Source: a virus
Strand: one strand, 5' to 3'
Length of the DNA stretch: 31,271 nt
Virus record (IMG/VR): IMGVR_UViG_3300038557_000002
Span: 1-31,271 of that record
In this document: piece by piece, positions 8,448-28,819 of the stretch
Position numbering within the stretch: the first letter of the stretch is position 1
How the letters are laid out: each line of letters begins with the position of its first letter
Notes under the pieces: model-generated
The model's input: the letters and a program-made list of their open reading frames with translations, nothing else
What the model was told of the DNA's origin: nothing
Databases searched by the model: none
Translations under genes and position numbers: made by a program

Positions 8448-9031
8448 TCGCTTTCCTCCACCTGGAAACCGATCTCGACCGTGTCTGTGAACTTGATCTG
8501 CGTCGGGTTGATCCGGCTGACCAGATAGCCTTCGATCACCGGTGAGTTGACCTGGACCACGTCGGCCACGTTGAGGACCGTGCGGACGGCTGGGATCACG
8601 GTCAGGGTCGCGCGGCCAGACCCGTTCGCTGTTGCATCATCGGTAATCTGGTGGAGGTAGCTGACGCCGTTCGCGCCAATGACGGAGAACAACTGACCAC
8701 CCATCAGGACGTGACCCACGGGGAGCCCGGCCAGAACGATGGTGGAGCCGCCGCTGACCGCCGAGCCAATGGTCACCGGACCTGGGACTGTGGTGTATTC
8801 GGCGGGCTGACGAACATCGACCCTGACTTTCTGAGCCAGACCCGCGTTCAGCTTCGCCGCGTATGCCATCCCCTGATCGCCGCGCGCTGGGAAGCTAAGC
8901 GAATAGGCCCAGTGGTCACCCAGGCGGTTGATGCGCTTGTTCGGACCGCCATGGGTGGGACGCTGGTCCTGGAAGTTGGCGACGTAATCTAGGCTGGCCT
9001 CACAACGTGGCGGATGTCTCAGAAGGATCAT
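8444..9031 (-). CDS. Distal tail / minor tail protein (lambda M-like or GTA gp12-like position), 195 aa
   Basis: This is the first gene after the tape measure in transcription order, where distal tail proteins are found. The N-terminal half (LRHPPRCEASLDYVANFQDQRPTHGG, with WAYSLSFPARGDQ) and the beta-strand-rich C-terminal half (GPVTIGSAVSGGSTIVLAGLP) are typical of small minor tail proteins, but no specific motif proves the family. ATG 9031 follows a TTAAATA element by four bases. The TAA of the tape-measure gene is part of that element. It couples to the next gene by ATGA. Confidence 0.65.
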   Translation of the reverse strand: MILLRHPPRCEASLDYVANFQDQRPTHGGPNKRINRLGDHWAYSLSFPARGDQGMAYAAKLNAGLAQKVRVDVRQPAEYTTVPGPVTIGSAVSGGSTIVLAGLPVGHVLMGGQLFSVIGANGVSYLHQITDDATANGSGRATLTVIPAVRTVLNVADVVQVNSPVIEGYLVSRINPTQIKFTDTVEIGFQVEESE

Positions 9032-9035
9032 CCAC

Positions 9036-9042
9036 TATTTAA
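9036..9042 (-). promoter_or_regulatory. TAAATA element ahead of the distal tail gene
   Basis: The element reads TTAAATA on the minus strand with 4 bases to ATG 9031. The tape-measure stop codon TAA (9041-9039) is embedded in it. Confidence 0.55.
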
Positions 9043-11936
9043 CGGCGGAGGCCCCTTCGCTGACTTTCGCTCATCTGTTCCTGGGTCAGTTCATTCGCAG
9101 CCATGACCGCGCCGACGTTGGCCTCCCTGATCTCTTTCCTGATCTGGCCAGCCAGAACCGCGTCATCGGCGTTCACGACGGTCGTGAAATTATAGACCGG
9201 CGCCCCGCGCGACATCATCGAACTGGACGCCGTCAGGTTCTTCAGATCACCCGTTGGCATGACCTGAGAGCCCTTCGGCATGTTGACCAGTTCGGGTCCG
9301 GCCTCGCCGACCAGCGACAGACCACCTGGAGCAAACCTGGTTCCAATGGCGTGGCGGTTCAGCATCGACGAAATAAGGCCGCCGTTATCGCCTCCAGCCG
9401 CAGGCTTACCCGCAAACATGGACAGTATGTTTGGTCCCCCGCCTCCGCCGAATCCGAGGAAGTTAGCAATAGGCGCGGTGATCATTTTCTGGACCGCGAT
9501 CCGCATCAAGTCGGCGATGATTTGCTTCGAGACATTGCGGAACATCTCGCCCATTTCCTGGGTCCGCATCATCACATCCACCAGCCCGTTTTCGATCGAT
9601 CCCAGACCTTCAGCGGCGACGTTCTGGAAGGCCGACTGGAGATCAGCCGCCTTGTCCACGAACTTGGCGAACGGGTTGTCCTGACGCTTGTCGAACTCAC
9701 GGCGAGCCCGCTCCGACGACTGCATCTGACCGAAGGCCGAAGCCTCAGCGGCCAGTCGGCGTTCAGCTTCGTCGTCCAGGGTTTGGGCGTTCTTCAGCCG
9801 TGCGCGTGTCTCCGCCTGACGGGCGTCGAAGTCGGCCTTCGCCGCTTGCTGATAGATGGCGAATTCCGCGTCCTCCAGGGCGTGGCGTTCACGGATCGTC
9901 TTCGCCATGGCGGCGCGGTTTTTGAGCGTGTCCTGGGTCAGTTGAGCGACCGATTGCTCCATCGCCAAGGCTTCGGCGGCGGCATCGGCGCGCTCTTGTT
10001 CGATCTCCAGGGCGCGGCGACGCTCTTCGCCCTTGCGCTCTTCCAGACGAGTGTTCTCGTTCAGGCTCAGGGCTTCGGTCGCCGCCGCTTCGCTGACCTT
10101 TTTGTCGGCCAGTTGCTTTTTGATCGCCTTCTCGATTTCGAGGGCTTCCAGGTCGATCATGAAGAGCGCGTTGCCGTGTCTCTGATCGCTGGTTTCGGCC
10201 AGCGCGTTCAGGGCGTCGATGTTGCGACGACGGGCATCAGCGAGGAGGCGTTCGTCGTTCGACTCGATATCGACAGCCGCGCCCTTCGATCCGCCGCCAC
10301 CTTTACCGCCACCGGCGCCGCCCGACGTGGACGGCGATCCTTGGATCAGTCGGGCTCCAGGCGCGGTGACCAGTTGGATCGCGCGGCCCATCAGGTCGCC
10401 GTTGGCGGCGTAGAGGCTTTCTTTCTCGCGCTGATCCCGTTCCTGGATCAGTTGACCGTTGTGACGGGTCCCAGCCGCATAGAGACCACGGCGGAAGAGC
10501 GACGGGTTTTCGAGTTCGTTGATCCGTTCGCGGTTCGTCGCGACGGCCTTGAAAATCGCCGTTCTAGCCGCCTGGGCGTTGGCGTCGGCCAGACGATACG
10601 TCTCGTCCGCAAGGGCGCGGGTCGCGTCACACAGACCAACGACACCGGCGATCGCTCCCGAACTGGCGTCGCCGACATCCTTCGTCCCCTTCGCTGATTT
10701 GCGGAGGACTTCGTCGGCCATCTTCATGGCTTCGTTCGAAGCCTCCATGGCTTCGGTGTAGGCTTTCTGATCTTCCTCAGCGTTCTTTGCGACGGTCGCC
10801 AGACCGAAGATTGCAGCCGCCACGGCGGTGATCGCCAGACCGATCGGGCCGCCGAAGAACGCCATTGAGGCGTTGAGCTTATCCATTGCCGCTGAGGCGA
10901 TCAGCGACGTGCGGGTGACACCCGTCTGAGCGGCCATCATTGCCAAAAGGGTCGCCTGATAACGGGCATTCGCCACGGCGCCGGTGACGGTCGTGGCGGT
11001 CCACGCAGCCATCGAACCGACCGCGCGCGACGCAAGGAAGGCCGATACGACCAGGAGAGAGTTGGCGACCAGATCGATATTCTCGCCCAGCATTTGGAGG
11101 GCGAAGCCAAGCTTCTCAGAAACGCCCAGGGATTGGTCGGCTTGACCGACATATTCGACCAGCGAGGTCCGAAGGTTTTGCAGACCAGCGGCGACAGTCA
11201 GGGGGGCGTTAGCGGCGTCCGACTTCAGTTTCGCCGACGCCGCGACGATGGCGTTCGCCCATTCCTGGGAAGACACCTTGCCGTCGTTGATCTCTTTCCT
11301 CAGGGCGCCCAAATCGCCCTTCCACTTCGTGGAGCTTTCGGCGACCGCACGGACCAACGCCGGAGCGTTTTCCAGCATCGAGTTGTATTCTTCGGCGCGC
11401 ACCGTTCCACCGGCGAGGGCCTGTCCGAGTTGGAGAATGGTCGCGCTGGCTTGGGCGGTCGTGGAGCCGGACAAACGCATTGCAGCGGCGACACCCTGCG
11501 TCGCGGCCATCATGTCGTTCTGGCTCAATCCGAGCGACTTCGCCGACATCGCCATGTTGCCGTAAAGGTCGGCCAGAGCGGTGACTTCGGTTCCGTTCGC
11601 CTTCGCCGTGGCGAAGAGATCGGCCTGGACTTGCGCCATATCGGACGACGCGACTTTGGCGTTGATCAGCTTGGATTCGAACCGGGTGAACTCGTCAGCC
11701 AGTGCGATGACTTCGCGGGCCGAAAAAGCAGCGGCGAAGGTCGCCCCCATCCCTTTGAGGGACGCGCCCAAGCCGGAGATCGAGCCCTGGATCGAGTTGA
11801 GGCTTTGCGCCGACTGCTGACTTGCGCGGGCCGAAGTTGCGGCCAAACGCATGATCTGGGTGTCTAGCTGGGCGATGCTCCGGCGGAGGGCGCGGTCGTT
11901 CGCGGTGAACTGAGTTTCAACTCTTGTGGTTGCCAT
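9039..11936 (-). CDS. Tape measure protein, 965 aa
   Basis: This protein scaffolds tail-tube assembly and sets tail length. The N-terminal tape-measure domain spans about residues 70-255, with the characteristic run ADEFTRFESKL, DLFATAKANGTEVTALADLY, VAAAMRLSGSTTAQASA and LAGGTVRAEEYNSMLENAP. Apolar stretches follow near residues 280-390 (LLVVSAFLASRAVGS; FFGGPIGLAITAVAAAIFGLA), which could interact with membrane at DNA entry. Long charged coiled coils follow at about 590-770, then a C-terminal GLSLVGEAGPELVNMPKG motif near 875, common in tape-measure proteins. At about 1.5 angstroms per residue the tail would be roughly 140-150 nm (family rule, inference). The start ATG 11936 follows a CTAAATA element by four bases. 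Confidence 0.92.
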   Translation of the reverse strand: MATTRVETQFTANDRALRRSIAQLDTQIMRLAATSARASQQSAQSLNSIQGSISGLGASLKGMGATFAAAFSAREVIALADEFTRFESKLINAKVASSDMAQVQADLFATAKANGTEVTALADLYGNMAMSAKSLGLSQNDMMAATQGVAAAMRLSGSTTAQASATILQLGQALAGGTVRAEEYNSMLENAPALVRAVAESSTKWKGDLGALRKEINDGKVSSQEWANAIVAASAKLKSDAANAPLTVAAGLQNLRTSLVEYVGQADQSLGVSEKLGFALQMLGENIDLVANSLLVVSAFLASRAVGSMAAWTATTVTGAVANARYQATLLAMMAAQTGVTRTSLIASAAMDKLNASMAFFGGPIGLAITAVAAAIFGLATVAKNAEEDQKAYTEAMEASNEAMKMADEVLRKSAKGTKDVGDASSGAIAGVVGLCDATRALADETYRLADANAQAARTAIFKAVATNRERINELENPSLFRRGLYAAGTRHNGQLIQERDQREKESLYAANGDLMGRAIQLVTAPGARLIQGSPSTSGGAGGGKGGGGSKGAAVDIESNDERLLADARRRNIDALNALAETSDQRHGNALFMIDLEALEIEKAIKKQLADKKVSEAAATEALSLNENTRLEERKGEERRRALEIEQERADAAAEALAMEQSVAQLTQDTLKNRAAMAKTIRERHALEDAEFAIYQQAAKADFDARQAETRARLKNAQTLDDEAERRLAAEASAFGQMQSSERARREFDKRQDNPFAKFVDKAADLQSAFQNVAAEGLGSIENGLVDVMMRTQEMGEMFRNVSKQIIADLMRIAVQKMITAPIANFLGFGGGGGPNILSMFAGKPAAGGDNGGLISSMLNRHAIGTRFAPGGLSLVGEAGPELVNMPKGSQVMPTGDLKNLTASSSMMSRGAPVYNFTTVVNADDAVLAGQIRKEIREANVGAVMAANELTQEQMSESQRRGLRR

Positions 11937-11940
11937 CCCA

Positions 11941-11947
11941 TATTTAG
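11941..11947 (-). promoter_or_regulatory. TAAATA element ahead of the tape measure gene
   Basis: The element reads CTAAATA on the minus strand with 4 bases to ATG 11936. Together with the plus-strand element at 11986 it forms a divergent pair only 38 bases apart. Confidence 0.6.
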
Positions 11948-11985
11948 ATGAAGGGAGGCGAGAGCCGGGTCGGTCCAGCTACCGA

Positions 11986-11992
11986 CTAAATA
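11986..11992 (+). promoter_or_regulatory. TAAATA element ahead of the tail chaperone (plus strand)
   Basis: The element reads CTAAATA on the plus strand with 4 bases to ATG 11997. It is one of only two well-formed plus-strand copies outside AT-rich DNA, and it sits exactly where the inverted chaperone gene needs a promoter. Confidence 0.6.
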
Positions 11993-11996
11993 TGTG

Positions 11997-12479
11997 ATGA
12001 TTTCTGGAGACAAGCCGAAAGGCTCTCGAACCGCCAAGGTCACTAAGGCCATCGGCGACGACTATTACGACCTCAAACTGGACTTCGAAGGCATCGTCGA
12101 ACTCGAAGAGAAAACCGATCGAGGCGTGTATTTTCTTTACAAAAAGATGTCGGAACTGAACTTGCATCAGTCCGACTTCGAAGGTGACTTCCGAGCCAAA
12201 TGGATCGTCGATGTCATCCGGATCGGGCTGATCAGGTCTGGCGCCATGACAGGACCGAAGGCGATCAACTTCGTCGAACATCACCTCCGTGGCGGCTTCG
12301 TCATGGACTATCTCCCAGCGGCGATCGACGTGCTTTACGCCGCGATCTATGGGCCTGAGGATGAGCCCGTGGTGTTTGAAAAATCGGGGGAGCCGGAGCC
12401 GGAGGTGGACGCGAGCCCGACCCCTTCGGCAGACACGGATGGGGCGAATACTGGAAACTCGCCGGAGCCATCGGCCTAG
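11997..12479 (+). CDS. Tail assembly chaperone, short form, 160 aa, inverted relative to the tail operon
   Basis: Its position between the major tail protein and tape measure is that of the tail assembly chaperone (lambda G, GTA g10), which coats the tape measure during tube assembly. The protein begins MISGDKPKGSRTAKV and has a folded core (DDYYDLKLDFEGIVELEEKTDRG through PAAIDVLYAAIYG). It ends in an acidic Pro-rich tail (EPEPEVDASPTPSADTD). The -1 frame below the tail is open and encodes the second chaperone domain, as in G/GT pairs. Unlike all neighbouring structural genes it is on the plus strand, with its own CTAAATA element four bases upstream. An in-frame GTG at 11994 would overlap that spacing and is less likely. 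Confidence 0.8.
   Translation: MISGDKPKGSRTAKVTKAIGDDYYDLKLDFEGIVELEEKTDRGVYFLYKKMSELNLHQSDFEGDFRAKWIVDVIRIGLIRSGAMTGPKAINFVEHHLRGGFVMDYLPAAIDVLYAAIYGPEDEPVVFEKSGEPEPEVDASPTPSADTDGANTGNSPEPSA
12378..12392 (+). promoter_or_regulatory. Candidate -1 ribosomal frameshift site in the chaperone gene
   Basis: The zero frame reads GAA AAA TCG GGG GAG. Two runs, five A (12379-12383) and five G (12386-12390), could allow a -1 slip; G GGG GAG lets the P-site Gly codon re-pair perfectly. The -1 frame is open from 12380 to the stop at 12692, and the zero frame stops at 12477-12479, so a slip must happen between those limits. Neither heptamer is a textbook X XXY YYZ. Confidence 0.45.
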
Positions 12480-12490
12480 ACCCGGAAAGC

Positions 12491-12694
12491 TTGCGCCGGA
12501 TGACCCTTTGGGAAATCGGCAAGCTGCGTGAGGGCTGGGTCGCCGCGAACTCGCCGCCGAAGAAACCGGGAGACCCAGTGGCGCCGGAAGAACTGACGGA
12601 CGAAGAGTTCGCCAGACTGATGGCCGTCGAAATCGTCGAGACGAATGAGGTGATTAGCTTCGACGAAGCGATGAAATTAGAAAAGACCCGGTGA
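12491..12694 (+). CDS. Tail assembly chaperone second domain (T-like); probable frameshift extension
   Basis: A separate start could be TTG 12491 or ATG 12500, but the same frame is open back to 12380. That upstream part encodes GEYWKLAGAIGLDPESLRRMT, followed by LWEIGKLREGW. This is the typical start of alphaproteobacterial phage and GTA tail-chaperone second domains (W---LAG--GL-P---W-MT--E, as in DUF2376/TAC-type proteins). I therefore infer that the domain is normally made as a -1 frameshift fusion of about 231 aa with the 11997 product. The C-terminus is acidic (PEELTDEEFARLMAVEIVETNE). Its TGA lies inside the stem of the downstream terminator. Confidence 0.7.
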   Translation: MRRMTLWEIGKLREGWVAANSPPKKPGDPVAPEELTDEEFARLMAVEIVETNEVISFDEAMKLEKTR

Positions 12695-12716
12695 TCATTC
12701 ACCGGGTCTCTTTTTG
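12681..12716 (+). terminator. Bidirectional intrinsic terminator between chaperone and major tail protein
   Basis: An 11-bp perfect stem (AGACCCGGTGA 12684-12694 with TCACCGGGTCT 12699-12709) closes a TCAT loop. T5 follows on the plus strand (12711-12715), and A4 precedes it and reads T4 on the minus strand. The genes on both sides converge here, so one hairpin can end both transcripts and stop antisense reading into the chaperone. Confidence 0.9.
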
Positions 12717-12731
12717 TCTTCGAAGTCGGTC

Positions 12732-13181
12732 TTAGGCGTTCTTCGTCAGAACCGGCGTCCCGTTTTGCTTCCAGGACATCTGGCAAGTCGCTTGCTCTTT
12801 GTAGGGGCCGTCGATCGTGAACGTCTCCAGGATGTAAGGGCAAGTCAGGGTCCAGCCGGTCGAAGCGTTGTCCTGACGGACTTTCAGATTGACGGTCGCG
12901 CCGGAGAGTTGCAGGGCCAGCATGTCATAGACATAGCGGTGATCCACGTTGCCGGAGCCTTCCAGCGATACGTCGATCGAGCGGACTTCGCGAGAGATCG
13001 CGTAAGGCTTGTCGAAGTCGTTCAGATCAGGAATTTCGGCCTCAGTCAGGTTTGCGGCTGCGCTGAGCGAGAAATTTGAGTTAATAAGACCGATGCGGGT
13101 GAAAACCTCAGGCGTGGCGCCATCACCTTTTTCGATGAAGTAACGCTGACCCTTAGTTTGTTGAAGACGATTTTCTGCCAT
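12732..13181 (-). CDS. Major tail (tube) protein, 149 aa
   Basis: The gene lies between the tail completion gene and the tape measure, the major tail protein slot. It starts MAENRLQQTKG and has a beta-rich body (EVFTRIGLINSNFSLSAAANLTEAEIPDLNDF; SIDVSLEGSGNVDHRYVYDMLALQLSG; CPYILETFTIDGPYKEQ) typical of phage tube proteins. ATG 13181 is chosen because AAGGA sits at a good distance upstream; the open frame up to 13223 crosses that ribosome site. Unlike most genes here it has a leader of about 25 bases between its ATAAATA element and the start. This fits its need for high expression. A strong terminator follows. Confidence 0.85.
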   Translation of the reverse strand: MAENRLQQTKGQRYFIEKGDGATPEVFTRIGLINSNFSLSAAANLTEAEIPDLNDFDKPYAISREVRSIDVSLEGSGNVDHRYVYDMLALQLSGATVNLKVRQDNASTGWTLTCPYILETFTIDGPYKEQATCQMSWKQNGTPVLTKNA

Positions 13182-13210
13182 GGGATTTCCTTGTGTTAGG
13201 ATGTTCCCGT

Positions 13211-13217
13211 TATTTAT
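13211..13217 (-). promoter_or_regulatory. TAAATA element with leader, major tail protein
   Basis: The element reads ATAAATA on the minus strand, about 29 bases upstream of ATG 13181. The start of transcription expected near 13205 would give a leader of about 24 bases carrying AAGGA. It is one of three elements in the window that are not immediately followed by a start codon. Confidence 0.55.
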
Positions 13218-13241
13218 CGTCACCCCTCTATTGGGCGGTCC

Positions 13242-13643
13242 CTAGTAGGTGTCTGGGTCCAGGAGATACCTGAAGTTTACTTCGACCATTTGAAAGTTTC
13301 CGCCTTCCTCATCTTTATAGAACCGGCTCTCTTCAAACGACCATTCCTGGGTCAGATAGCCCTCCACCTGAAGCTCCACGTCCAGGATCACTTGGATCAG
13401 GTTGGCCAGACGCTTCACGCCGGTGAGGCCGTTTTGTGAGGTGAAGCCCTGGATCATCACGAAGCATTCGTGTTGCCAAAGATCACGCGAGAACGCGTCC
13501 TCGCCGATCACGACGTATGGGAAGACGGCGTCATTCGGGACGTGGTCATAGACCCGCCCGTCGATCACGGCGTTCAGGGCGGTGTCGGCCAGAAGGGCGT
13601 CGAAGATTGCTTTTTGGAGCGGGAGGGCTGGGTGGTTTGCCAT
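13242..13643 (-). CDS. Tail completion / tail terminator protein, DUF3168 family, 133 aa
   Basis: DUF3168 proteins cap the tail tube at the neck (HK97 gp10/lambda U slot). The matching pattern is LPLQKAIFDALLADTALNAVIDGRVYDHVPNDAVFPYVVIGED, followed by CFVMIQGFTSQNGLTGVKRLANLIQ. ATG 13643 is preferred over farther upstream starts because a GTAAATA element ends four bases before it. The longer frame up to 13790 reads through the preceding gene and is low-complexity Pro/Ala. Length agrees with the family (about 130-140 aa). It lies upstream of the major tail protein, as in HK97-like phages. Confidence 0.85.
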   Translation of the reverse strand: MANHPALPLQKAIFDALLADTALNAVIDGRVYDHVPNDAVFPYVVIGEDAFSRDLWQHECFVMIQGFTSQNGLTGVKRLANLIQVILDVELQVEGYLTQEWSFEESRFYKDEEGGNFQMVEVNFRYLLDPDTY

Positions 13644-13647
13644 CCAA

Positions 13648-13654
13648 TATTTAC
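13648..13654 (-). promoter_or_regulatory. TAAATA element ahead of the tail completion gene
   Basis: The element reads GTAAATA on the minus strand with 4 bases to ATG 13643. It decides the start codon of this gene. Confidence 0.6.
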
Positions 13655-13665
13655 CCCAGGAGGGG

Positions 13666-14067
13666 TCAGGGGGAGTATTTGCGGGCGATGCGCTTGATCC
13701 CGGCGCGGATGCGGGCGCGGTGGCTCTTACGGGCCTTGGAGCGGGCTGGCCGGTGATACGGATCAGCGCGCCGTCCCGACTTCGTCCCAAACTCTTGGAT
13801 CAAAGCGTAGTCGAACGCGAACGATCGGCCACCGACGCGCTTCGTCGTCACGGCGCCGCCGGAGTGGACCTCCCAGCCGTCCTGGACCTTCACCGCTTCG
13901 ATCGTGCTGATCAGCTTTCCCGTCTTCCGGGGCGCGATGCGCTTCATCTGGTTCCGCATCGCGCGGGCTGACCGCTCGCTCGCCTGATCAGACATCTCTT
14001 TCACGTCGCGCGCGTAGGCGGCGAAATTGGCGCGGAACTGGGTCGTGTTGACCGAAGTGCGGATCAC
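13666..14067 (-). CDS. HK97 gp10-like head-tail/neck protein, 133 aa
   Basis: The segment KRIAPRKTGKLISTIEAVKVQDGWEVHSGG followed by FDYALIQEFGTKSGRRADPYHRPA is the characteristic core of the HK97 gp10 family (basic, with the Tyr-Ala---E-GT motif). The C-terminus is highly basic (KARKSHRARIRAGIKRIARKY). GTG 14067 overlaps the preceding TGA (GTGA) and gives MIRTSVNTTQFRANF. A TTG nine codons upstream is possible but less natural. It belongs to the three-gene neck operon headed by the element at 14650. Confidence 0.85.
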   Translation of the reverse strand: MIRTSVNTTQFRANFAAYARDVKEMSDQASERSARAMRNQMKRIAPRKTGKLISTIEAVKVQDGWEVHSGGAVTTKRVGGRSFAFDYALIQEFGTKSGRRADPYHRPARSKARKSHRARIRAGIKRIARKYSP

Positions 14068-14402
14068 CTGACGACCTCGCAAGTCACCAGCCAATCCCTC
14101 CCCTCACCTTTCAAATCGGCGATGTGGCGGACCTCATAGACGACGCCTGAGCGGGCGTTGACCAGCCGGTCGGATGGCGCGAGCTTGTTCGTGGTCGGGC
14201 TCTGGCGAAGGGTGATCTCGAAGGCGTTCTTCGAAATCAGACGACCGGCGCGGACTTCCTCACCCCCACGGAGCGGGAGAATATAGGCCGCGATCCCTGA
14301 CCATAGGGGAGCCCATCCGGCGACTGTGTTCCCGTAACCGTCGCTGGCTTTTGTCTGACGCTGAGCGTTTACGCGATCGCGGAACTTGCCAGCCGGGATC
14401 AT
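14064..14402 (-). CDS. Head closure / head-tail adaptor protein, SPP1 gp16-like, 112 aa
   Basis: The pattern MIPAGKFRDRVNAQRQTKASDGYGNTVAGWAPLWSGIAAYILPLRGGE, then APSDRLVNARSGVVYEVRHI, is typical of the phage head-tail joining family that closes the head after packaging. ATG 14402 overlaps the stop of the preceding gene (ATGA); an upstream ATG at 14414 is in frame but unnecessary. Length matches the family (about 105-115 aa). It is followed by the gp10-like gene with a GTGA overlap. Confidence 0.85.
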   Translation of the reverse strand: MIPAGKFRDRVNAQRQTKASDGYGNTVAGWAPLWSGIAAYILPLRGGEEVRAGRLISKNAFEITLRQSPTTNKLAPSDRLVNARSGVVYEVRHIADLKGEGRDWLVTCEVVR

Positions 14403-14644
14403 TGCGGACCCCACTTCTTCCTCATCCGGGTCCGCTTCAGCTTCGTGACCAGTTCGGGATCGGAGCCGTCGTCTTCGTCATCGCCAAGGATGTCGTCGGG
14501 CACGACCTCACCCAGCCCGCGTTCGAGGATGATCTCAACGGCGTCAGCGGGGACGCCGGGATAGGTGTTGTCGGCCAGATAGGCGACCGTCCCGTTCGGG
14601 ATGCGGTGATCGTAATCGGCGAAAAATGTGACAGTGAATTCCAT
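14399..14644 (-). CDS. Small neck-region hypothetical protein, 81 aa
   Basis: The protein begins with a short beta region (EFTVTFFADYDHRIPNGTVAYLADNTYPGVP) and an acidic patch (DDILGDDEDDGSDPE). It ends in a basic tail (KLKRTRMRKKWGPQ). No known family is evident. ATG 14644 follows a CTAAATA element by exactly five bases. It heads a coupled neck operon (14644 to 13666), so a role in head-tail connection is likely. The clear split between acidic and basic halves suggests a partner-binding protein. Confidence 0.7.
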   Translation of the reverse strand: MEFTVTFFADYDHRIPNGTVAYLADNTYPGVPADAVEIILERGLGEVVPDDILGDDEDDGSDPELVTKLKRTRMRKKWGPQ

Positions 14645-14649
14645 GCCAA

Positions 14650-14656
14650 TATTTAG
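14650..14656 (-). promoter_or_regulatory. TAAATA element ahead of the neck operon
   Basis: The element reads CTAAATA on the minus strand with 5 bases (TTGGC) to ATG 14644. The same element-plus-spacer string occurs ahead of the small terminase gene. Confidence 0.6.
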
Positions 14657-14666
14657 GGCGGCGGCG

Positions 14667-15218
14667 TTACTGAGCGGCCCTGTAGTTGCTCAGGATGCGG
14701 TCGATCTCAGCCGGGATCGGTTGGTCTTCGTCACCCCGATGGGCGGAGTAGTGGCCGACCAGGAGAAGGATCACCCGACGCAGGACCGCCGGGACCGTTT
14801 CGGGATCGGAGCCATAACCGGCTTTGAACGTCACCTTCACGGCACCGGGCTGTGGAGTGAAAGACGGCCAGTTGGTATTCGGCGCCCTGACGATGACGGG
14901 GACAGATAGGTCGAGGTCCACGACGTATTGATCCGGCTCCATCACTTCCCCCAGGACTTCAATCGCGTCGATGGAGATCACCGGTCCCAGGTTGAGCGAG
15001 ATGGCTTCCAGGCGGTCGTGGCTCTGTCTCCAGGTCTGGGTCAGGAGGCATCGACCGATCCCGTTCGGGCCTTCGATATGCGAGGTCGCTTGTTCGATCA
15101 GGGCGTTGATCAGGGCGTCGTCATCGTTGTGGAAGACGTTCAGGTGACGCTTCGCTTCGGCGAGGCTGACGACAGTATCCAGGGGAGCCGATACGCGGCG
15201 GAGGTTGAGCCAGTTCAT
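14667..15218 (-). CDS. Head-tail connector protein, phiE125 gp8 / HK97 gp6-like, 183 aa
   Basis: The pattern VVSLAEAKRHLNVFHNDDDALINALIEQATSHIEGPNGIGRCLLTQTW is typical of this connector family, which forms the ring below the portal. KVTFKAGYGSDPETVPAVLRRVILLLVGHYSAHR near the C-terminus is also diagnostic. Length is normal for the family. ATG 15218 is chosen because it lies five bases after an ATAAATA element; ATG 15224 overlaps the element itself and would add two residues. Confidence 0.88.
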   Translation of the reverse strand: MNWLNLRRVSAPLDTVVSLAEAKRHLNVFHNDDDALINALIEQATSHIEGPNGIGRCLLTQTWRQSHDRLEAISLNLGPVISIDAIEVLGEVMEPDQYVVDLDLSVPVIVRAPNTNWPSFTPQPGAVKVTFKAGYGSDPETVPAVLRRVILLLVGHYSAHRGDEDQPIPAEIDRILSNYRAAQ

Positions 15219-15223
15219 GCTCA

Positions 15224-15230
15224 TATTTAT
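15224..15230 (-). promoter_or_regulatory. TAAATA element ahead of the connector gene
   Basis: The element reads ATAAATA on the minus strand with 5 bases to ATG 15218. It lies just downstream of the capsid-unit terminator, so it restarts transcription for the connector. Confidence 0.6.
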
Positions 15231-15240
15231 GGGCGGGCAT

Positions 15241-15268
15241 GAAAAAGCCCGGCGGGGGACGCCGGGCT
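15241..15268 (-). terminator. Intrinsic terminator of the capsid transcript
   Basis: On the minus strand a perfect 9-bp GC-rich stem (AGCCCGGCG with CGCCGGGCT) closes a TCCCC loop and runs directly into T4-5. It lies after the capsid and 58-aa gene, ending the most strongly expressed unit before the connector promoter. Confidence 0.9.
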
Positions 15269-15300
15269 CTCAAGGATAGTGCGCTTATTTCTCCCAGAAA

Positions 15301-15477
15301 TTATCGCGTCTCTTTGGTCGGTCCACTACGGACGGCCTTTTCAGCCTTCCGTGTCTCCACGACCGGGATCGCATAGCCAGCGGCCAAGTATCTCTTGGCC
15401 CGCTCGCCTTCGACGATGTCGCCGGGGACAAGGCCCCCGGCTCCATTCATCAGCGCGGTGATCATGCGCGCTTTCAT
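15301..15477 (-). CDS. Small head-associated hypothetical protein, 58 aa
   Basis: This short gene starts one base after the capsid stop codon (TAA, G, ATG at 15477) and ends with TAA at 15303-15301, 33 bases before the terminator. It therefore belongs to the capsid unit. The product starts MKARMITALMNGAGGLVPGD, continues IVEGERAKRYLAAGYAIPV and has a charged end (RKAEKAVRSGPTKETR). The GLVPGDIVEGE---R-L-AGYA pattern resembles small proteins encoded between capsid and connector genes in other phages, where decoration or completion roles are common. The role here is inferred from position only. Confidence 0.7.
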   Translation of the reverse strand: MKARMITALMNGAGGLVPGDIVEGERAKRYLAAGYAIPVVETRKAEKAVRSGPTKETR

Positions 15478-15478
15478 C

Positions 15479-16678
15479 TTACGCCTTGATCTTCAGACCA
15501 GCGACGCAGTTCGGGTTCATCAGATCGCCATCGTAACGACCGAAGCCGACGAACACGACTTGATCCGAGGTCATGGCCAGTTCATCCGAACGCTTTATCG
15601 AGTAGTCGCTGACCTTACGGAAGGTGTAACCCTTCAGATCGCCATAGATGGCGCCGATCGAACCGGCGGTCGTGACCATGTCCGGGTTGATCACGTAGGG
15701 CTTGCCCAGGATCGTCCCTTCGGCGCCAGCCGTCAGGCCGGGTTGCCAGATGTAGCGACCTTCAGCGTCCTTCAGAGTGCGAGCTTCCAGAAGGAAGGCG
15801 TCCGAGAACATCCACTTACCAGCGGCGCGGTAAGCCGGAGCCACCTTGTGTTGCAGGGCGAAAAGTTCGTCCGCAACGGCCTTGGCGCCCAGCGTGGTGA
15901 CCAGCTTGGATGCGTCAGCAGCCACGGCGGTGACAATGCCATGGGGCTGGTTAGAGCCGGTGCCGTTGGTGAAGTGACGGTTCAGGATGCGGGCGATACG
16001 ATCGTTCAGAGCGTTCGAAACCAGGGCGACGATGTCGGTGTTCGAATCTTGCAGAAGCTCATTCGAGATCATGACCTTACCCGACGTGTATTTGAACGCA
16101 CCCAGGGCGCGTTGCGTCAGGGTGATGTCGGTTTCCGGAGCTTCAGTCGCTTCACCGATCAGCGAACCGACGTTTGAACGGTCGTCCAACGAGTTCTGGA
16201 AAATCTCGTTGCCGTTGTCGGTGGACAGGATCGTAACGTTGGCGCCGTCGATCATCGGACCGACTTCGCCGCGTGCGACTTGGACTTCCGACTGAGTCGA
16301 GGACGGAGCGGTGAAACCACCCTTGGCGTCGGTTGCGACGTTCATCGCACGCAGTTCGCGAGCGGAAATGTCACCGCGTAGATAGGAAACGAAAGCGGCG
16401 CGTTGCTCAGCTTCACGTCCACCTTCAGCGGACTTGGCCGAACGGGTCTGCGACGGACGATCGAAGTCGGTTTCGTTGGCGATCTTCTCGCGCTTGGCCA
16501 GATCGTCGCTCAGGTCGGCGCGAGAGCCATAGCTGTCGGCCTCAGCCAGCATACGACGGACTTCGGTTTCGGCTTCACCCCGAGCTTCGGGGGCCAGCTT
16601 CTCCATCTCGTCCATCTTGGCGCGGGCTTGGAATTCGATTTCCGCCTTACGTTGGCGAAGTTCGCGGGAGGTATTCAT
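15479..16678 (-). CDS. Major capsid protein, HK97 family, 399 aa
   Basis: It forms the icosahedral shell. Residues 1 to about 110 are charged and coiled-coil-like (MNTSRELRQRKAEIEFQARA and onward), the typical delta or scaffolding domain removed by the protease. The shell part starts near MNVATDAKGGFTAPSS, with HK97-type segments LTQRALGAFKYTSGKVMISNELLQDS and NRHFTNGTGSNQPHGI. GRYIWQPGLTAGAEGTILGKPYVI and GAIYGDLKGYTFRKV follow. Length is normal (about 390-410). ATG 16678 has GGAGA six bases upstream and a leader of about 35 bases from an ATAAATA element. Order portal, protease, capsid is canonical. Confidence 0.96.
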   Translation of the reverse strand: MNTSRELRQRKAEIEFQARAKMDEMEKLAPEARGEAETEVRRMLAEADSYGSRADLSDDLAKREKIANETDFDRPSQTRSAKSAEGGREAEQRAAFVSYLRGDISARELRAMNVATDAKGGFTAPSSTQSEVQVARGEVGPMIDGANVTILSTDNGNEIFQNSLDDRSNVGSLIGEATEAPETDITLTQRALGAFKYTSGKVMISNELLQDSNTDIVALVSNALNDRIARILNRHFTNGTGSNQPHGIVTAVAADASKLVTTLGAKAVADELFALQHKVAPAYRAAGKWMFSDAFLLEARTLKDAEGRYIWQPGLTAGAEGTILGKPYVINPDMVTTAGSIGAIYGDLKGYTFRKVSDYSIKRSDELAMTSDQVVFVGFGRYDGDLMNPNCVAGLKIKA

Positions 16679-16718
16679 TCAGTTCTCCAATAAAAGTCGT
16701 GATGACTGTTGTTGGAGA

Positions 16719-16725
16719 TATTTAT
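16719..16725 (-). promoter_or_regulatory. TAAATA element with leader, capsid gene
   Basis: The element reads ATAAATA on the minus strand, about 40 bases before ATG 16678. A start near 16713 would give a leader of about 35 bases carrying GGAGA. The capsid is one of only three units with a Shine-Dalgarno leader behind this element. Confidence 0.55.
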
Positions 16726-16763
16726 GTTTTGACCCGCGATGACTGGCTCTCAGGCCGGTCTAA

Positions 16764-17435
16764 TCACCGCTTACTGACGTTGTCAGCATGACGACGAAGC
16801 AATTCCATACGTAGTTCCTCGAACCGGCTGGCCGACTCTCGAATTTCATCTTCGGTGGGTCCAGTTTGGAGGGCCTCACGAATGATCTCCTTCGTCTCAA
16901 CGGCGTTCCGCTCAGCCACCCAGGCGTCACGGCTCCGTAGGGCGACCGAAGTCGCCGAATAGGCCGGATAGGTCACCAGAGAGACTTCGGTCAGTTCGAG
17001 TTCGAAGACCGTCCGAACGAAGACGCCGTCCGCTTTGTCTTCCCAGGCGTCGCGGTGGGTGTAGAAGCCGAAGCTGACCTGGAGGTCTTTGCGAGCCAGC
17101 GTCTTCCGTTGCTTCTCGTCCAAACCATCGATGTCGAATTCGAACCTCAGGCCCAGGTCGTCGCCGAAGAGACGGAGGGTTCCGGACTGGGTCGAAGCCA
17201 GAATGTCGGCGTGGTCGTGTTGCCAGAAGAGGTAAACGTTCGCCTCGCCAGCGGCGACCTTGCGAAGGCTTTCGTCGAAGGCGCCTGGAGCCAAAACCTC
17301 ACGGAAGTCGCCCAGGATTTCACTGGGGCTGTTGTAGAGAGCGGCATATCCACCGGCGGTCTTCCCATCGGCGATGTCGGCGCGAACGGCGCGGGTTTCG
17401 GGTTGGCCGTATGTCCGGCGTTCTAGCTTATCCAT
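16764..17435 (-). CDS. Prohead maturation protease, HK97 family (U35-type), 223 aa
   Basis: This serine protease removes the capsid delta domain. Visible markers are GYAALYNSPSEILGDFREVLAPGAFDESL near residues 29-57, then LFWQHDHADILAS (catalytic His at 73 or 75) and the DLQVSFGF Ser near 121. ELTEVSLVTYPAY, with its Glu near 150, completes the set. ATG 17435 is chosen because GGAGG lies nine bases upstream; ATG 17441 is only three bases from it. The gene overlaps the portal stop by eight bases and has no own TAAATA element, so it depends on the portal transcript. A helical C-terminal tail of about 50 residues follows the protease core. Confidence 0.92.
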   Translation of the reverse strand: MDKLERRTYGQPETRAVRADIADGKTAGGYAALYNSPSEILGDFREVLAPGAFDESLRKVAAGEANVYLFWQHDHADILASTQSGTLRLFGDDLGLRFEFDIDGLDEKQRKTLARKDLQVSFGFYTHRDAWEDKADGVFVRTVFELELTEVSLVTYPAYSATSVALRSRDAWVAERNAVETKEIIREALQTGPTEDEIRESASRFEELRMELLRRHADNVSKR

Positions 17436-18747
17436 TGTCATCTTCCTCCAGGGCCGCGTCGGGCTCTTCGTTCTCTTTGTTGGGTTCTTCGGCTCCGACT
17501 TCGGCGTCCGGCTCTGCGTCCAGGATGTCGGCGATTTGGGCCATCGGGACGGTGGCGCCCTGGATGTAGAGTTCGTCTCCACCTTCCTTGGCTTCCATGT
17601 TGAGCTTGGCGCGGACTTCGTTCGGGGTCAGGAACCCGCCGTGGATGCCGATCCGGAAGCTGTCGTATTGCGTCTTCAGATCGCCGCGTTCCAATCCAGC
17701 CATCTCAAATTCGACGTAGCTGGAGCGATTACGGTCCGCGAAAAGCTTCGCGTTCATCTCAGCTTCCATCATGACCAGGATCGGGCGGATCGTGTGCTGG
17801 CTGAAGTGGATGTTGAGTTGTTCGACGTTCGAATACGTCGATTTTGAATGGTCCTGGATGAACGACGGCGGAATGTTGAAGATGCGCGCGACTTCGCCAA
17901 GATGATAGCCGCGAAGTTCGACGTGTTGCTGGTTCTTCGCGTCAGAGCCAATGGCCTTGATCTCGAAACCGTTCGGCATCGGTAGAGCCGGGAGTTTCTT
18001 CGCCCGAATGCTACGCAGACCCGCCCAAATGCTTTCGACGCCACGCGCCATCGCCTCCGGCGATCCCTGCGGCTGAGTGATGACGTGAGCGGGGATGCCT
18101 CCGCTCTGGAACATGTGAGAGGCCGAACGCTGGGCCGCGATCATCTCGCCGATGATGTTGCGGTTCAGTTGGATCGGGTTGGTGGTCTGACCGTCGTGGG
18201 TGATCGGACCCTTGGCGAAGTCGAGAATCTTCCAGGCCGGTATCCGCTTCGTTCGCCCGAAGTCGTCGGTGTGGACGTAGGTCCGGACGTTGTCGTCGTC
18301 GATCTCGACCTGAACCCGCTTCTCATCCAACGGCATGAAGCCGATGACGCGGTTCTTCGCGTTCATCTCGATGTAGGTGATGGCCCGGTTCGACAGGTGG
18401 AGCCGGGTGACCGCCCAATAGACCCACTGGGGCGCCGTCATCATCGAACGCGGGCTCACCACATCGTGGATGATGCGCTGGAGCGGATCACCTGGACCGG
18501 CTTTGACCCGACCCTCGCCGGTGCGGCGGTAAAGATTGAGCGGAAGAGAAGCGCACGTCGATGCGATCGCGTGGACGGCGGCTGAGATCGCCGGAACACC
18601 CATGGCGTCCGTTTCGGTGACGCGTTCGCCGGAGAATGCTCCGGGGGTGCCATTGATCATCAGGGCGGCGTCGCTGCTGCCGCTTCCCGTAATGTTGAAT
18701 GATTTCTGAGTCCTGGAGCGTTTTTCTCCGAAGCCGAATAGAGCCAT
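17428..18747 (-). CDS. Portal protein, HK97 family, 439 aa
   Basis: It forms the dodecameric DNA-entry ring. Recognisable parts are VPAISAAVHAIASTCASLPLNLYRR near residue 50 and DPLQRIIHDVVSPRSMMTAPQWVYW near 90. GYHLGEVARIFNIPPSFIQDHSKSTYSNVEQ (about 280-315) is the strongest family marker. The C-terminus is an acidic tail (NKENEEPDAALEEDDNG). Length is normal. ATG 18747 follows a CTAAATA element by four bases, and the terminase stop codon lies inside that element. It overlaps the protease gene. Confidence 0.95.
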   Translation of the reverse strand: MALFGFGEKRSRTQKSFNITGSGSSDAALMINGTPGAFSGERVTETDAMGVPAISAAVHAIASTCASLPLNLYRRTGEGRVKAGPGDPLQRIIHDVVSPRSMMTAPQWVYWAVTRLHLSNRAITYIEMNAKNRVIGFMPLDEKRVQVEIDDDNVRTYVHTDDFGRTKRIPAWKILDFAKGPITHDGQTTNPIQLNRNIIGEMIAAQRSASHMFQSGGIPAHVITQPQGSPEAMARGVESIWAGLRSIRAKKLPALPMPNGFEIKAIGSDAKNQQHVELRGYHLGEVARIFNIPPSFIQDHSKSTYSNVEQLNIHFSQHTIRPILVMMEAEMNAKLFADRNRSSYVEFEMAGLERGDLKTQYDSFRIGIHGGFLTPNEVRAKLNMEAKEGGDELYIQGATVPMAQIADILDAEPDAEVGAEEPNKENEEPDAALEEDDNG

Positions 18748-18751
18748 GCCG

Positions 18752-18758
18752 TATTTAG
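18752..18758 (-). promoter_or_regulatory. TAAATA element ahead of the portal gene
   Basis: The element reads CTAAATA on the minus strand with 4 bases (CGGC) to ATG 18747. The TerL stop TAA (18757-18755) is part of it. Confidence 0.6.
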
Positions 18759-20431
18759 GCGGCGGCTCCCCAGGCTCCGGCGAAGGGGTTGTAAGTGGGG
18801 TCTTCGAATGGGTTTGTGATGACGTTCGATGTCGTTCGATCGCGTTCCATCAAGCCCAAAGCCATCGCGAGCGTCACCGCGCCGTCGATGCGGAAGCGAG
18901 ACTTGGACTTATCCAGCTTGCGCGCGCCGGTTGGGTCTTGGGTCGTGATCGCGTTGGAGACGCAGAAGTTCTGGATCGGGTTGTCATCGTGCCGAAGTCG
19001 GTCGTCAGTGATCGCCGCCTGGAGGGCATTCACGGCCACATCCATATCCCTGTATCCCTGCCCCCACGGCTCCAGCCGCAAGCCATCACCTGGGCCGATC
19101 TGAGCTTCGAACTGGAGGTGGTCCAGGCAACGAAGGAACTCGTCTATTTTCCAACGGTCATAGGCCAAAGCCTTCACCCGATACTTAGTCGCCAGTTCGA
19201 CCACGGCGAGCGCGGTCACCATCGGATCGATCGATTCCTTGGGCGAGGTCCGGAGGTTTCCTTGGATGTGTTGGGCGACGTAGTCGAAGCCGTCGCGGTT
19301 CGAATGCTCACGCAGGAGATCGGCGGGTTTCCAGAACAGGGTCGAGGTCCTGAGCGGCTTTTCCGTGGTTCCGAAGTCGGGCTCCACCGTGAGGATCGAC
19401 AGGGCCGTGAGGTCGAAGCGACCTGACTGGTCGAGGGCCAGGTACACTTCGGCCTTCTCTTCGATCTCGAAGTCGTCGGCGGCGCGTTTCCAAAGCTTCT
19501 GAGGGATCAAGCTGGCATGCATCGAAACCCGCTGATTGTAGAGGTAGAGGCGGAAGCCTTGCTCTTCTGACGGGAGGCGCGCGGCGCGACCGGCCTGAGC
19601 TTCGAAATCTCCAAGGTCGCGGAAATCACCCAGCGCGGGGTTGCAGCCGAACCAAACCTCACGGTCGTCGATCGCAGCGTCATCGGGCGCGGCGTAGAGG
19701 TGGCAAGCCGTGGTGGGGTCCTGACCCGTAAGACCATCGTCGATGAGGATGCTCATCGGATGTTGAGGGTCATGGGACTGGGTCGAGATCGCGACGAAAA
19801 GCGGCTCTTTGCGCGAGGCGAAACCGTAGCGGAGGGCTGTCAAAAGCTTGGCGTTCGGAGCCTCGCCGAGTTCATCATAGATGATCAGGCTGGGCTTGAA
19901 GCCCTGTTTGGTCGAGGCGTCCGCAGACAGGGCGCGAAACTTCGACCCTTGGCATCGTTTCAGGCCGCTAGACGGCTTCACGATCATGGTTTTGTTGGCG
20001 AAAATATCAATGATGCTGGCCAACGTCGGGTTGACCTCGATCAGGGCTTTGACCGCATCGAAGATGATCGACGCCTGGAGGCGGTCGTTGGCCGCTGAAT
20101 AGATTTCGCCGTTGGGTTCTGACTCCGGACCAACGAAGTGGACCAGTAGGAGCGGCGCCATCAGGCCGGTCTTCCCGTTCTTTTTCGGCATTGAGAAAAT
20201 CGCCTGACGGATCAGGCGAAGGTTGTTCTCACGGGTCGGGCCGTAAACGTCGCGGATGAATTCCTTTTGCCATTCACGCAGCTTCATCGGCTGGCCGACG
20301 TGAGGGCCTTCCGTGACGAGACAGAAAGTCTCGATAAACTGGATGACGCGTTCGACGCGTTCGTGGTTGAAATCCCCCTCCGACTTCGGTGACCGGTGGA
20401 AGCAAGGGTTCGGCTTAACCTCCGGGATCAC
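18755..20431 (-). CDS. terL: Terminase large subunit, HK97-type, 558 aa
   Basis: This is the ATP-driven packaging motor and DNA-cutting nuclease. Walker A is SMPKKNGKT at about residues 80-88 and Walker B is LIIYDELGEA at about 182-191. YSAANDRLQASIIFDAV between them is typical of Terminase_1-type proteins. The C-terminal nuclease shows YLALDQSGRFDLTALSIL, YDRWKIDEF and a final RIDGAVTLAMALG Asp. GTG 20431 overlaps the TerS stop (GTGA). The open frame extends to 20617, but that part overlaps TerS and is low quality, so I exclude it. Length fits the family. A CCGAAGTCGG site lies at 19371 and another at 20380. Confidence 0.95.
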   Translation of the reverse strand: MIPEVKPNPCFHRSPKSEGDFNHERVERVIQFIETFCLVTEGPHVGQPMKLREWQKEFIRDVYGPTRENNLRLIRQAIFSMPKKNGKTGLMAPLLLVHFVGPESEPNGEIYSAANDRLQASIIFDAVKALIEVNPTLASIIDIFANKTMIVKPSSGLKRCQGSKFRALSADASTKQGFKPSLIIYDELGEAPNAKLLTALRYGFASRKEPLFVAISTQSHDPQHPMSILIDDGLTGQDPTTACHLYAAPDDAAIDDREVWFGCNPALGDFRDLGDFEAQAGRAARLPSEEQGFRLYLYNQRVSMHASLIPQKLWKRAADDFEIEEKAEVYLALDQSGRFDLTALSILTVEPDFGTTEKPLRTSTLFWKPADLLREHSNRDGFDYVAQHIQGNLRTSPKESIDPMVTALAVVELATKYRVKALAYDRWKIDEFLRCLDHLQFEAQIGPGDGLRLEPWGQGYRDMDVAVNALQAAITDDRLRHDDNPIQNFCVSNAITTQDPTGARKLDKSKSRFRIDGAVTLAMALGLMERDRTTSNVITNPFEDPTYNPFAGAWGAAA

Positions 20432-20916
20432 TGGATGAGCCCCCCGGTCAGGCTCCCCAGTGTCGGTTTGTCCGAAGTCGCCGAACGCATGGTTTGGCGC
20501 GCCACCGGCGTCAGGAAGAGCGACGGCCCCAGCAAGTTGATCTGGGCGATCGCATCTTTCTGCATGGCGACGAACGGGCTGGCCGTGACCTGACCCATCG
20601 AGCCTTCGGTCGTCCATTCACCCTTCGCCAGACGGGCCGACGCCATCTGGAACTTGGCCACCGCTTCGCAATAGGCGGCGATCTGGAACTTGTCGGTGTT
20701 CCCATAGACGCCGTCCAACTGTGACTGGACCACCTCGCGCCAGATCGCCTGGGCGGGCTTCGACATCGGAGGCATGGTCAGGGGGGTGACGTTTTGGACG
20801 GGGTGCTGGCCAGCGTCGAGAGCGGATTTCGCATCGGCTGACAGACGGTTGCCGGGATCACCGGCGAGGTGTTTTTCTTGGATGGGCTTAGGGGGACGCC
20901 CTCTGGGCTTTGACAT
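20428..20916 (-). CDS. terS: Terminase small subunit, P27 family, 162 aa
   Basis: It binds phage DNA and loads it on TerL. The start MSKPRGRPPKPIQEKHLAGDPGNR matches the P27 terminase pattern (G-RP-KP, then L-GNPG-R), with PPMSKPAQAIWREVVQSQLDG and a C-terminal ASPFVAMQKDAIAQINLL-like helix as in the family. ATG 20916 is five bases after a CTAAATA element. It is coupled to TerL through GTGA. The non-coding stretch directly upstream is the expected site for cos or pac recognition. Confidence 0.92.
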   Translation of the reverse strand: MSKPRGRPPKPIQEKHLAGDPGNRLSADAKSALDAGQHPVQNVTPLTMPPMSKPAQAIWREVVQSQLDGVYGNTDKFQIAAYCEAVAKFQMASARLAKGEWTTEGSMGQVTASPFVAMQKDAIAQINLLGPSLFLTPVARQTMRSATSDKPTLGSLTGGLIQ

Positions 20917-20921
20917 GCCAA

Positions 20922-20928
20922 TATTTAG
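20922..20928 (-). promoter_or_regulatory. TAAATA element ahead of the terminase operon
   Basis: The element reads CTAAATA on the minus strand with 5 bases (TTGGC) to ATG 20916. No -35-like hexamer is seen 16-18 bases upstream. Confidence 0.6.
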
Positions 20929-21188
20929 GAGCCCAGTCGCGGCGACCGGCCTTAGCCGGGTGTCCGCCCAGGCCGACAGGCCACGCCGAAGGCGGCGCCC
21001 AGGGCTGAAAAATGGACTTCGATTTTCGCAGATGTCCGCGTTGTGGGGGGCGACGGTCTCTGGCGAGCGTCATCGCTGGTCCTTCGACCACCCCCTCCCC
21101 TCTGTTGATCCGCCGGACCGGTCGTGGGAGCGACCAATCCGGCTTCATCAATCCGAAAGGAGCGACGATCGTGCCCGACCATCACTCT
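20929..21188 (-). other. 260-base region upstream of terminase; candidate packaging (cos/pac) region
   Basis: No convincing gene lies here. Two short leftward open frames exist (starts near 21182 and 21151), but they are Pro, Arg and Gly-rich and overlap each other. The stretch is GC-rich with small dyads (for example GGCGCCGCCTTCGGCG-type repeats near 20980-21000). A TAAATA element at its right end would transcribe it toward TerS. Placement beside TerS makes it the best candidate for DNA recognition and cutting; the exact site cannot be seen. Confidence 0.35.
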
Positions 21189-21195
21189 TATTTAG
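21189..21195 (-). promoter_or_regulatory. TAAATA element without a clear gene
   Basis: The element reads CTAAATA on the minus strand. GTG lies 3 bases and ATG 6 bases downstream, both just outside the 4-5 base rule. The frame from them (to 20952) is not convincing. It may drive a non-coding RNA through the packaging region. Confidence 0.4.
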
Positions 21196-21216
21196 TATTC
21201 GAGGCGTCGGTTGCGG

Positions 21217-21222
21217 TATGAT
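21217..21222 (+). promoter_or_regulatory. Possible -10 box (TATGAT) for a leaderless zinc-ribbon gene
   Basis: TATGAT is followed by six bases and ATG 21229, so a start of transcription at the ATG is possible. No matching -35 hexamer is visible. It differs from the TAAATA elements and may be read by the host sigma factor. Confidence 0.35.
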
Positions 21223-21228
21223 CGGGAT

Positions 21229-21603
21229 ATGTATTGCACCGATTGTAGTGTCCGTCTGGAAGTAAACGTCAACATCTCAGGTCTAGCCCTGAGGCGTGGG
21301 AACCTGATTTGTCGAAAGTGCAAGAACAAACTTCATTGTCTTAAGTGGTATCATGAAAAAGGCGCGAACGAACGCAGCACGGCGCGGGCGGTCGAGAGAG
21401 CTAAGCGTGAGCAAAAGCCCAAGGCCCCGCCTATACCTAAGTCCCCAGACATCCCGGCCCTGTCCCGATCCATGGTGGGCCATGCCGCTTTGATCCAGGC
21501 TAAGATCGATGCGGTGGCCGACGTGCTGGCCAAGCCAGCCAAGATCACGACCATCACTCTTCGAGGTGGTCAGCCCAAACCATCATCACCTCAAACTCTC
21601 TAG
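21229..21603 (+). CDS. Zinc-ribbon protein of unknown function, 124 aa
   Basis: Two CxxC pairs, CTDC at residues 3-6 and CRKC at 28-31, form a probable zinc ribbon. A basic helix (ERSTARAVERAKREQKPK) and a Pro-rich linker follow, and then a C-terminal helix (GHAALIQAKIDAVADVLAKP). ATG 21229 is preferred to an upstream TTG at 21211 because the Cys pair begins right after it. It is the only rightward gene between the terminase block and the early region, and its last 50 bases overlap the end of the convergent gene. A DNA-binding or transcription-linked role is plausible but unproven. Confidence 0.65.
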   Translation: MYCTDCSVRLEVNVNISGLALRRGNLICRKCKNKLHCLKWYHEKGANERSTARAVERAKREQKPKAPPIPKSPDIPALSRSMVGHAALIQAKIDAVADVLAKPAKITTITLRGGQPKPSSPQTL

Positions 21604-24332: not shown

Positions 24333-24339
24333 TATTTAT
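24333..24339 (-). promoter_or_regulatory. TAAATA element ahead of the leftward small-gene operon
   Basis: The element reads ATAAATA on the minus strand with 6 bases to ATG 24326, one base longer than the usual gap. It would drive the nine-gene unit down to 21554. Confidence 0.5.
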
Positions 24340-27993: not shown

Positions 27994-28439
27994 CGGGCGC
28001 CGAACAACGATTCCTCGCTGCGATAAAGCTGGCCGACGCCCGCGTCGCGCTCTGGGCCTACATCGAAGATGATGCTGACCCGGATGAGATCATTCCGAAT
28101 GAAGTGACTTGTGACGAGGACTGGGGCGAAGTGGAGTTCCACCGGGTCGGCGACAGCTATCACCTCGCATACATCGCGAGATTTGAAATTCGCGGAACGT
28201 GGTTCCCACCATACGTCTCGGACTTGTGGGAAGCCTCACAACGAGGCCTTGCCATCGATCCCATCATCGAGTTTCCAGACCTGTTTCCGACGTTCGTCAG
28301 CCTGGAGGCCGCGACGAAGTCGATACGACCATCCGAGTTCCCGATCGTCGCCAGCACGTTCGACGCCCTGACGCAGGAGCGTCCGGAGCTTCGTCCGCAC
28401 TATGAGCGGGCGCGGCTGGCCTGGGAGGCGAGCCAGTGA
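27990..28439 (+). CDS. Hypothetical acidic protein, 149 aa
   Basis: ATG 27990 overlaps the previous stop (ATGA). The sequence starts MTGAEQRFLAAIKLADAR and has an acidic stretch (IEDDADPDEIIPNEVTCDEDWGEVEF). It continues with aromatic segments (YHLAYIARFEIRGTWFPPYVSDLW) and a Pro-containing C-terminal part. No family is recognised. The high content of Asp and Glu is notable and could mean a DNA-mimic-like or partner-binding role, but that is speculation. It is coupled to the paralog array by GTGA. Confidence 0.6.
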   Translation: MTGAEQRFLAAIKLADARVALWAYIEDDADPDEIIPNEVTCDEDWGEVEFHRVGDSYHLAYIARFEIRGTWFPPYVSDLWEASQRGLAIDPIIEFPDLFPTFVSLEAATKSIRPSEFPIVASTFDALTQERPELRPHYERARLAWEASQ

Positions 28440-28819
28440 ATCGCGTCGTCTGGACCACCATCGGCATTGAGGCCGACCTGACTGAGCGGACCTGGGCCAA
28501 CCTTTCCCAGCAACACAGCGAAGAAATCAGAAAAATCACGACGCATGTTATCGACGGGATCAGTTCGTCTGATGTCGTCGCATTGTTGACCGGTAGGACC
28601 GCACCCAATCCGCCGGGTGATAAAACGCAACCCGTTGAGTTAACCCTTAGTGAGCCGGTCACAACCCTCAGATTCGAGTTCGACACGGAAACCCAGGCGA
28701 TAGCTTTCCGCCTCACTCATCCCGACCATCTGATCGATGAACCGACCGATCCTGAGCCGGAAAAAGCCGCACGGGTGAACCGCCTCAACCGTCTTCCGAG
28801 GCTGGAGGCGAGCCAATGA
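28436..28819 (+). CDS. Tandem paralog 1 of an unknown family, 127 aa
   Basis: This is the first of three adjacent related genes. Shared framework: VVWTTIGIEADLTERTW at the N-terminus, RFEFDTETQAIAFRLTHPDHL near residue 80-100, and a C-terminal EKAARVNRLNRLPRLEA. This copy carries an insert of about 25-30 residues relative to the others (region SSSDVVALLTGRTAPNPPGDKTQ). GTG 28436 overlaps the preceding stop (GTGA). DNA identity with copy 3 is very high at both ends. The function is unknown; the two conserved ends around a variable centre suggest diversification of a binding part. Confidence 0.7.
   Translation: MNRVVWTTIGIEADLTERTWANLSQQHSEEIRKITTHVIDGISSSDVVALLTGRTAPNPPGDKTQPVELTLSEPVTTLRFEFDTETQAIAFRLTHPDHLIDEPTDPEPEKAARVNRLNRLPRLEASQ

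Follow-up and report, generated by a model that had tools for sequence, protein, structure and literature searches.

Few features of long-tailed phages are as stable as the order of major tail protein (MTP), G/GT chaperone, and tape measure protein (TMP) on a single strand. How, then, can a phage carry its chaperone gene on the strand opposite to its tail genes? This question is raised by the window analyzed here, a 31,271-bp virus contig whose late genes lie on the minus strand: terminase small and large subunits, portal, protease, HK97-type capsid, connector, head completion, tail terminator, MTP, TMP, distal tail, and fibers. As the original prediction proposed, G and T lie on the plus strand, flanked by MTP and TMP on the minus strand, and Pfam and PHROG matches support these assignments (Table 1). 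A search of the window for a second G copy in the usual, minus-strand orientation found none.

Table 1. Features of the chaperone cassette and neighboring late genes in the window
Feature	Position	Strand	Remarks
TMP	9039-11936	-	TMP_3 match, 2.2e-44; divergent from G
CTAAATA of TMP	11941-11947	-	divergent to G element
CTAAATA of G (putative T4-type late promoter element)	11986-11992	+	last A 4 nt before ATG 11997
G, tail assembly chaperone	11997-12479 (ORF start 11994/11997)	+	Phage_TAC_11/GTA-gp10 family; inverted relative to tail operon
Slippery heptamer G GGG GAG (putative -1 frameshift, G to GT)	12385-12391 (approximate to 1-2 bases)	+	correct register
T domain (-1 frame)	12392-12694	+	conserved W/F..AGA.G..P..L..M..WE motif
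Two-way intrinsic terminator (predicted)	12684-12709	both	between convergent T and MTP
MTP	12732-13181	-	Phage_tail_2, PHROG 13196; convergent with G/T
TAAATA of MTP	13211-13216	-	29-nt leader with SD (AAGGAA)
TAAATA of major capsid protein	16719-16724	-	40-nt leader with SD

G and T form a putative frameshifted chaperone pair

In phage lambda, gpG and gpGT link the tape measure and the tail protein (PMC5009743). The window cassette resembles lambda G/GT, Phage_TAC_11, and RcGTA-gp10 in its position between MTP and TMP, its family match, and its -1 frameshift register into T, but differs from them in lying opposite the tail operon with its own promoter-like element and terminator. G matched PF11836 (Phage_TAC_11) at 5.5e-8 (33.2 bits, curated cut-off = 27.8) and PHROG 8985 at 1.4e-12. 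All four genomes found to carry the inversion (see below), and nearly all relatives, have the heptamer GGGGGAG in the -1 register, the -1 extension adds 71 amino acids beyond the G stop codon, and T homologues are present in the relatives L126, L127, L270, L002, and L003. The in-frame heptamer and the conserved T in the -1 frame suggest that the two genes encode a G/GT pair. G is under purifying selection, since differences between the window and L126 fall at codon positions 1, 2, and 3 at 0.27, 0.25, and 0.50, respectively. When the G model (mean pLDDT 77, core >90) was searched against the PDB for similar folds, no significant match was returned. With the window G as query, direct DNA similarity and single-protein searches found no relatives; these were retrieved instead with TerL, MCP, TMP, and MTP queries.

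The inversion arose once and has been retained

We compared the orientation of G in related phages by alignment-based scans of viral contigs. Three metagenomic contigs, each from a different sample, carry the same cassette inverted between MTP and TMP: L126 (TMP 67% and G 54% identical to the window), L127 (57% and 48%), and L270 (G 44%). Across these contigs G identity is about 44 to 55%, and each G also scores above the PF11836 curated cut-off. The window is a single metagenome-derived record, so the inversion might have been made by an assembly or binning artifact; however, the same arrangement in three contigs from other samples with G this divergent, and the agreement of the G tree with the MTP+TMP tree, make that explanation almost certainly wrong.

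The inversion is as unusual as originally proposed. In a census of loci with G beside MTP or TMP, four genomes were inverted versus approximately 140 same-strand loci (the latter including some overlapping pieces of one contig), and every locus outside the four has G on the tail strand. The isolated relatives with a recognizable G, Rhizobium phage RHph_X2_26 and Mesorhizobium phage vB_MseS-P1, share with the window the order MTP, TAC11-type G, TMP but differ from it in having G on the tail-gene strand. In maximum-likelihood trees the four inverted genomes form one clade (support of 100/100 on MTP+TMP and 100/98 on G), and orientation requires a single change of state. Path lengths were 0.42 changes per column between the window and L126 and 1.86 between the window and L270; given this long divergence, the inverted arrangement has been long retained. 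We conclude that a single inversion event, in the common ancestor of this small siphophage clade, has been kept since.

A compact cassette flanked by signals on either side could also be a switchable invertible element (phase variation) of which only one of two orientations has been seen. Short inverted repeats that could have mediated the inversion had been suggested at the cassette borders, but a search of both borders found none. Near the left edge, the only repeat pair (11934-11947 / 11986-11999) consists of the two divergent putative promoter-plus-start sequences themselves. The lack of flanking repeats, together with the shared orientation of four divergent members, renders phase variation highly unlikely.

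A TAAATA element precedes nearly all late genes

The original prediction placed a promoter-like CTAAATA element four bases before the ATG of G. The element is there (Table 1), and its geometry is repeated in L126, L127, and L270. As an element belonging to G the claim held in all four inverted genomes, but as a peculiarity of the cassette it did not, since the element stands before nearly all late genes. In the window, CTAAATA occurs 9 times (0.34 expected) and TAAATA 18 times (1.3 expected), with the TAAATA copies mostly immediately upstream of late genes. Across 18 family genomes (524 kb), TAAATA occurs 305 times versus approximately 39 expected, and 169 of these copies have an ORF-opening ATG or GTG exactly 4 to 5 nt downstream (gap 4, 112; gap 5, 57). 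Gaps of 6 to 20 nt account for about one copy each, about a dozen together. An SD sequence accompanies 2 of 179 near sites versus 34 of 59 far sites. Among the far sites are those of the capsid and MTP genes in almost all family genomes; these genes, unlike most late genes, have leaders of 26 to 40 nt, usually with a hairpin that holds the SD in its 3' arm.

The 4- to 5-nt spacing is the usual place of an SD sequence, and TAAATA might be a non-SD translation-initiation element, with late genes read in long operons and the inverted cassette in need of another promoter. Against this, the capsid and MTP copies lie far upstream, and a separate SD intervenes before the start codon; the inverted cassette, unreadable from the tail operon, has kept the element in four of four genomes; and terminator-like hairpins stand between genes (near 15229 in the window, and in L082). 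We regard a translational role as improbable. The distribution argues that TAAATA determines where transcription starts and does not act as a ribosome signal, because SD sequences explain translation at the far sites.

Late promoters of this kind are known from T4-type phages: T4 uses TATAAATA at -13 to -6, S-PM2 uses NATAAATA, and Aeh1 uses CTAAATA from -12 (PMC1524935, PMC2984593). The family element shares with them the CTAAATA/TAAATA core, the position before late genes, an expected start approximately 6 nt downstream, and the lack of a -35 signal, no -35 information content being present upstream of TAAATA in the 18 family genomes. By this resemblance, each late gene would have one putative promoter. 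Two differences set the family apart from the T4-type phages. Its members are siphophages and prophages with HK97-like heads, in which a gp55 homologue was not found, and most expected starts fall on the start codon. Because the T4/Aeh1 spacing puts the start there, we infer that most late mRNAs are leaderless. Searches of the open-access literature turned up neither an inverted chaperone nor promoters of this type within the group, which constitutes weak evidence of absence.

The pattern of element plus ATG was also scanned in the related lysogens Novosphingobium chloroacetimidivorans, N. silvae, and Sphingomonas sp. IC081, where it occurs in 13 to 20 copies per 4.6- to 5.5-Mb genome, mostly within the prophage. 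Because it clusters in the prophage within host chromosomes, a phage-specific specificity factor likely reads the element. The apparent link of the family to the Sphingomonadaceae comes from these related prophages and not from the window's own host.

Several further sites were observed. The exact T4 octamer TATAAATA occurs on the minus strand of the window (24333-24338), 6 nt before a gene for a 141-amino-acid, zinc-ribbon-like basic protein, and in L003 (near 2408) it has a similar position ahead of a comparable start. In N. chloroacetimidivorans, a further TAAATA cluster with a tail-fiber-like large gene (G015:C21) probably represents the remainder of that species' prophage, which is interrupted by a contig end. 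The N. silvae prophage (G016:C62, ~187-189 kb) is probably damaged, because a transposase-like gene separates the large terminase subunit gene from a truncated small-subunit gene.

A terminator and per-gene promoters would make the inversion workable

The predicted bidirectional terminator was borne out by folding. The hairpin has T-rich tracts on both sides and free energies of -25.3 and -24.2 kcal/mol on the two strands (z = -4.1 and -4.4), which no shuffled sequence equaled, and it is the top plus-strand terminator within 9000-21500. All four inverted genomes have both an own TAAATA element for G and a two-way terminator, the terminators being of unrelated sequence.

Relatives in the usual orientation indicate how this state may have been reached. 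G overlaps the MTP stop codon (TAATG or similar) in distant relatives that lack the element and in some that have it (L002, L003, L130, L204, and L232). G has its own TAAATA while still on the tail strand in L082, L089, L092, L218, and prophages L234 to L236, which implies that G may be independently transcribed in these genomes as well; in L082 a terminator also stands upstream of G. All relatives with an element-less G are same-strand, and no inverted member lacks an element of its own. By parsimony, a plausible path leads from a translationally coupled G through a same-strand G with its own element to the inverted G, with three changes on the tree. The own-element state appears to have had more than one origin, and the L082 group does not contain the inverted clade. 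The window layout would result if a unit like that of L082 were flipped next to the terminator upstream of it.

Taken together, these results make it likely that G/T is a self-contained transcription unit that was inverted once and is workable through per-gene late promoters. The unit would comprise, in order, a T4-late-type CTAAATA promoter, G, the -1 slippery site, T, and the two-way terminator. Most late genes would likewise have their own -35-less CTAAATA promoter, used late in infection and recognized through a factor that may be phage-encoded or phage-recruited. Transcription of G/GT would start at the start codon or 1 to 2 bases from it, yielding a leaderless mRNA; the terminator would end both this transcript and the opposing MTP transcript, and TMP would start from its own divergent element. 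The flip would cut no transcript, because of the two-way terminator and the divergent element of TMP. The earlier proposal that the self-contained cassette makes the inversion workable thus agrees with the comparison of element-bearing and element-less relatives, and the inversion is probably workable because a putative promoter stands before nearly every late gene. Since same-strand relatives also have their own G element, independent transcription appears to make the inversion tolerable and not to result from it; chaperone dosage may, as originally proposed, be set independently of the tail transcript. The inverted clade has departed from the single-strand order and kept the frameshift, which shows cotranscription with the tail genes to be dispensable. 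The arrangement points to a form of late-gene control in alphaproteobacterial siphophages with one putative T4-type promoter per gene and leaderless mRNAs.

The G and TMP elements stand back to back

The divergent TAAATA hexamers of G and TMP are separated by 40 bp in the window, 31 bp in L127, 8 bp in L126, and 2 bp in L270. The L270 pair (11266-11279) forms a near-palindromic, double promoter-like sequence, CTCTATTTACCTAAATAGAG. As an addition to the explanation above, the two promoters might be mutually exclusive, tying the chaperone to tape measure output. Judging from polymerase size, two polymerases could not co-bind at spacings of 2 to 8 bp, but the spacing varies, and 31 to 40 bp may admit both; we consider the addition doubtful.

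A broader reading, offered here as a tentative possibility, extends to temperate siphophages of the Sphingomonadaceae and their relatives. Nearly every late gene would be transcribed from its own CTAAATA promoter by means of a factor unrelated to gp55, giving leaderless mRNAs, and leaders with an SD-bearing hairpin would be confined to the two virion proteins of highest abundance. The chaperone would thereby have been free to invert and, in one clade, to share a mutually exclusive promoter with TMP.

Candidates for the specificity factor

Sigma70_r2 matched none of 14 related records, several of which are fragments, and gp55 is itself divergent. Among the related records, some incomplete, no universal early gene resembling a regulator was found. 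The widely shared genes encode the HNH endonuclease, terminases, and structural proteins, and small candidates occur in subsets only. Host-type sigma70 promoters were also considered as drivers of the late genes and rejected, with 1 found in 9000-21500 versus 2.7 expected. Lysogens of Novosphingobium and Sphingomonas would allow a direct search for the factor.

Immediately upstream of the HNH gene, several family members encode a protein of 73 to 82 amino acids that has LPGLPGG close to its C terminus (e.g., G002:C1:27150-27371 and G016:C62, ~190.9 kb); this small protein is a possible regulator candidate. Elsewhere, the plus strand of the window carries three small tandem paralogous genes at 28436-29417 (MNRVVWTTIGIEADLTERTW.., MSRYVWTSISIASELEERTW.., MSRVVWTTIGIEADLTERTW..).
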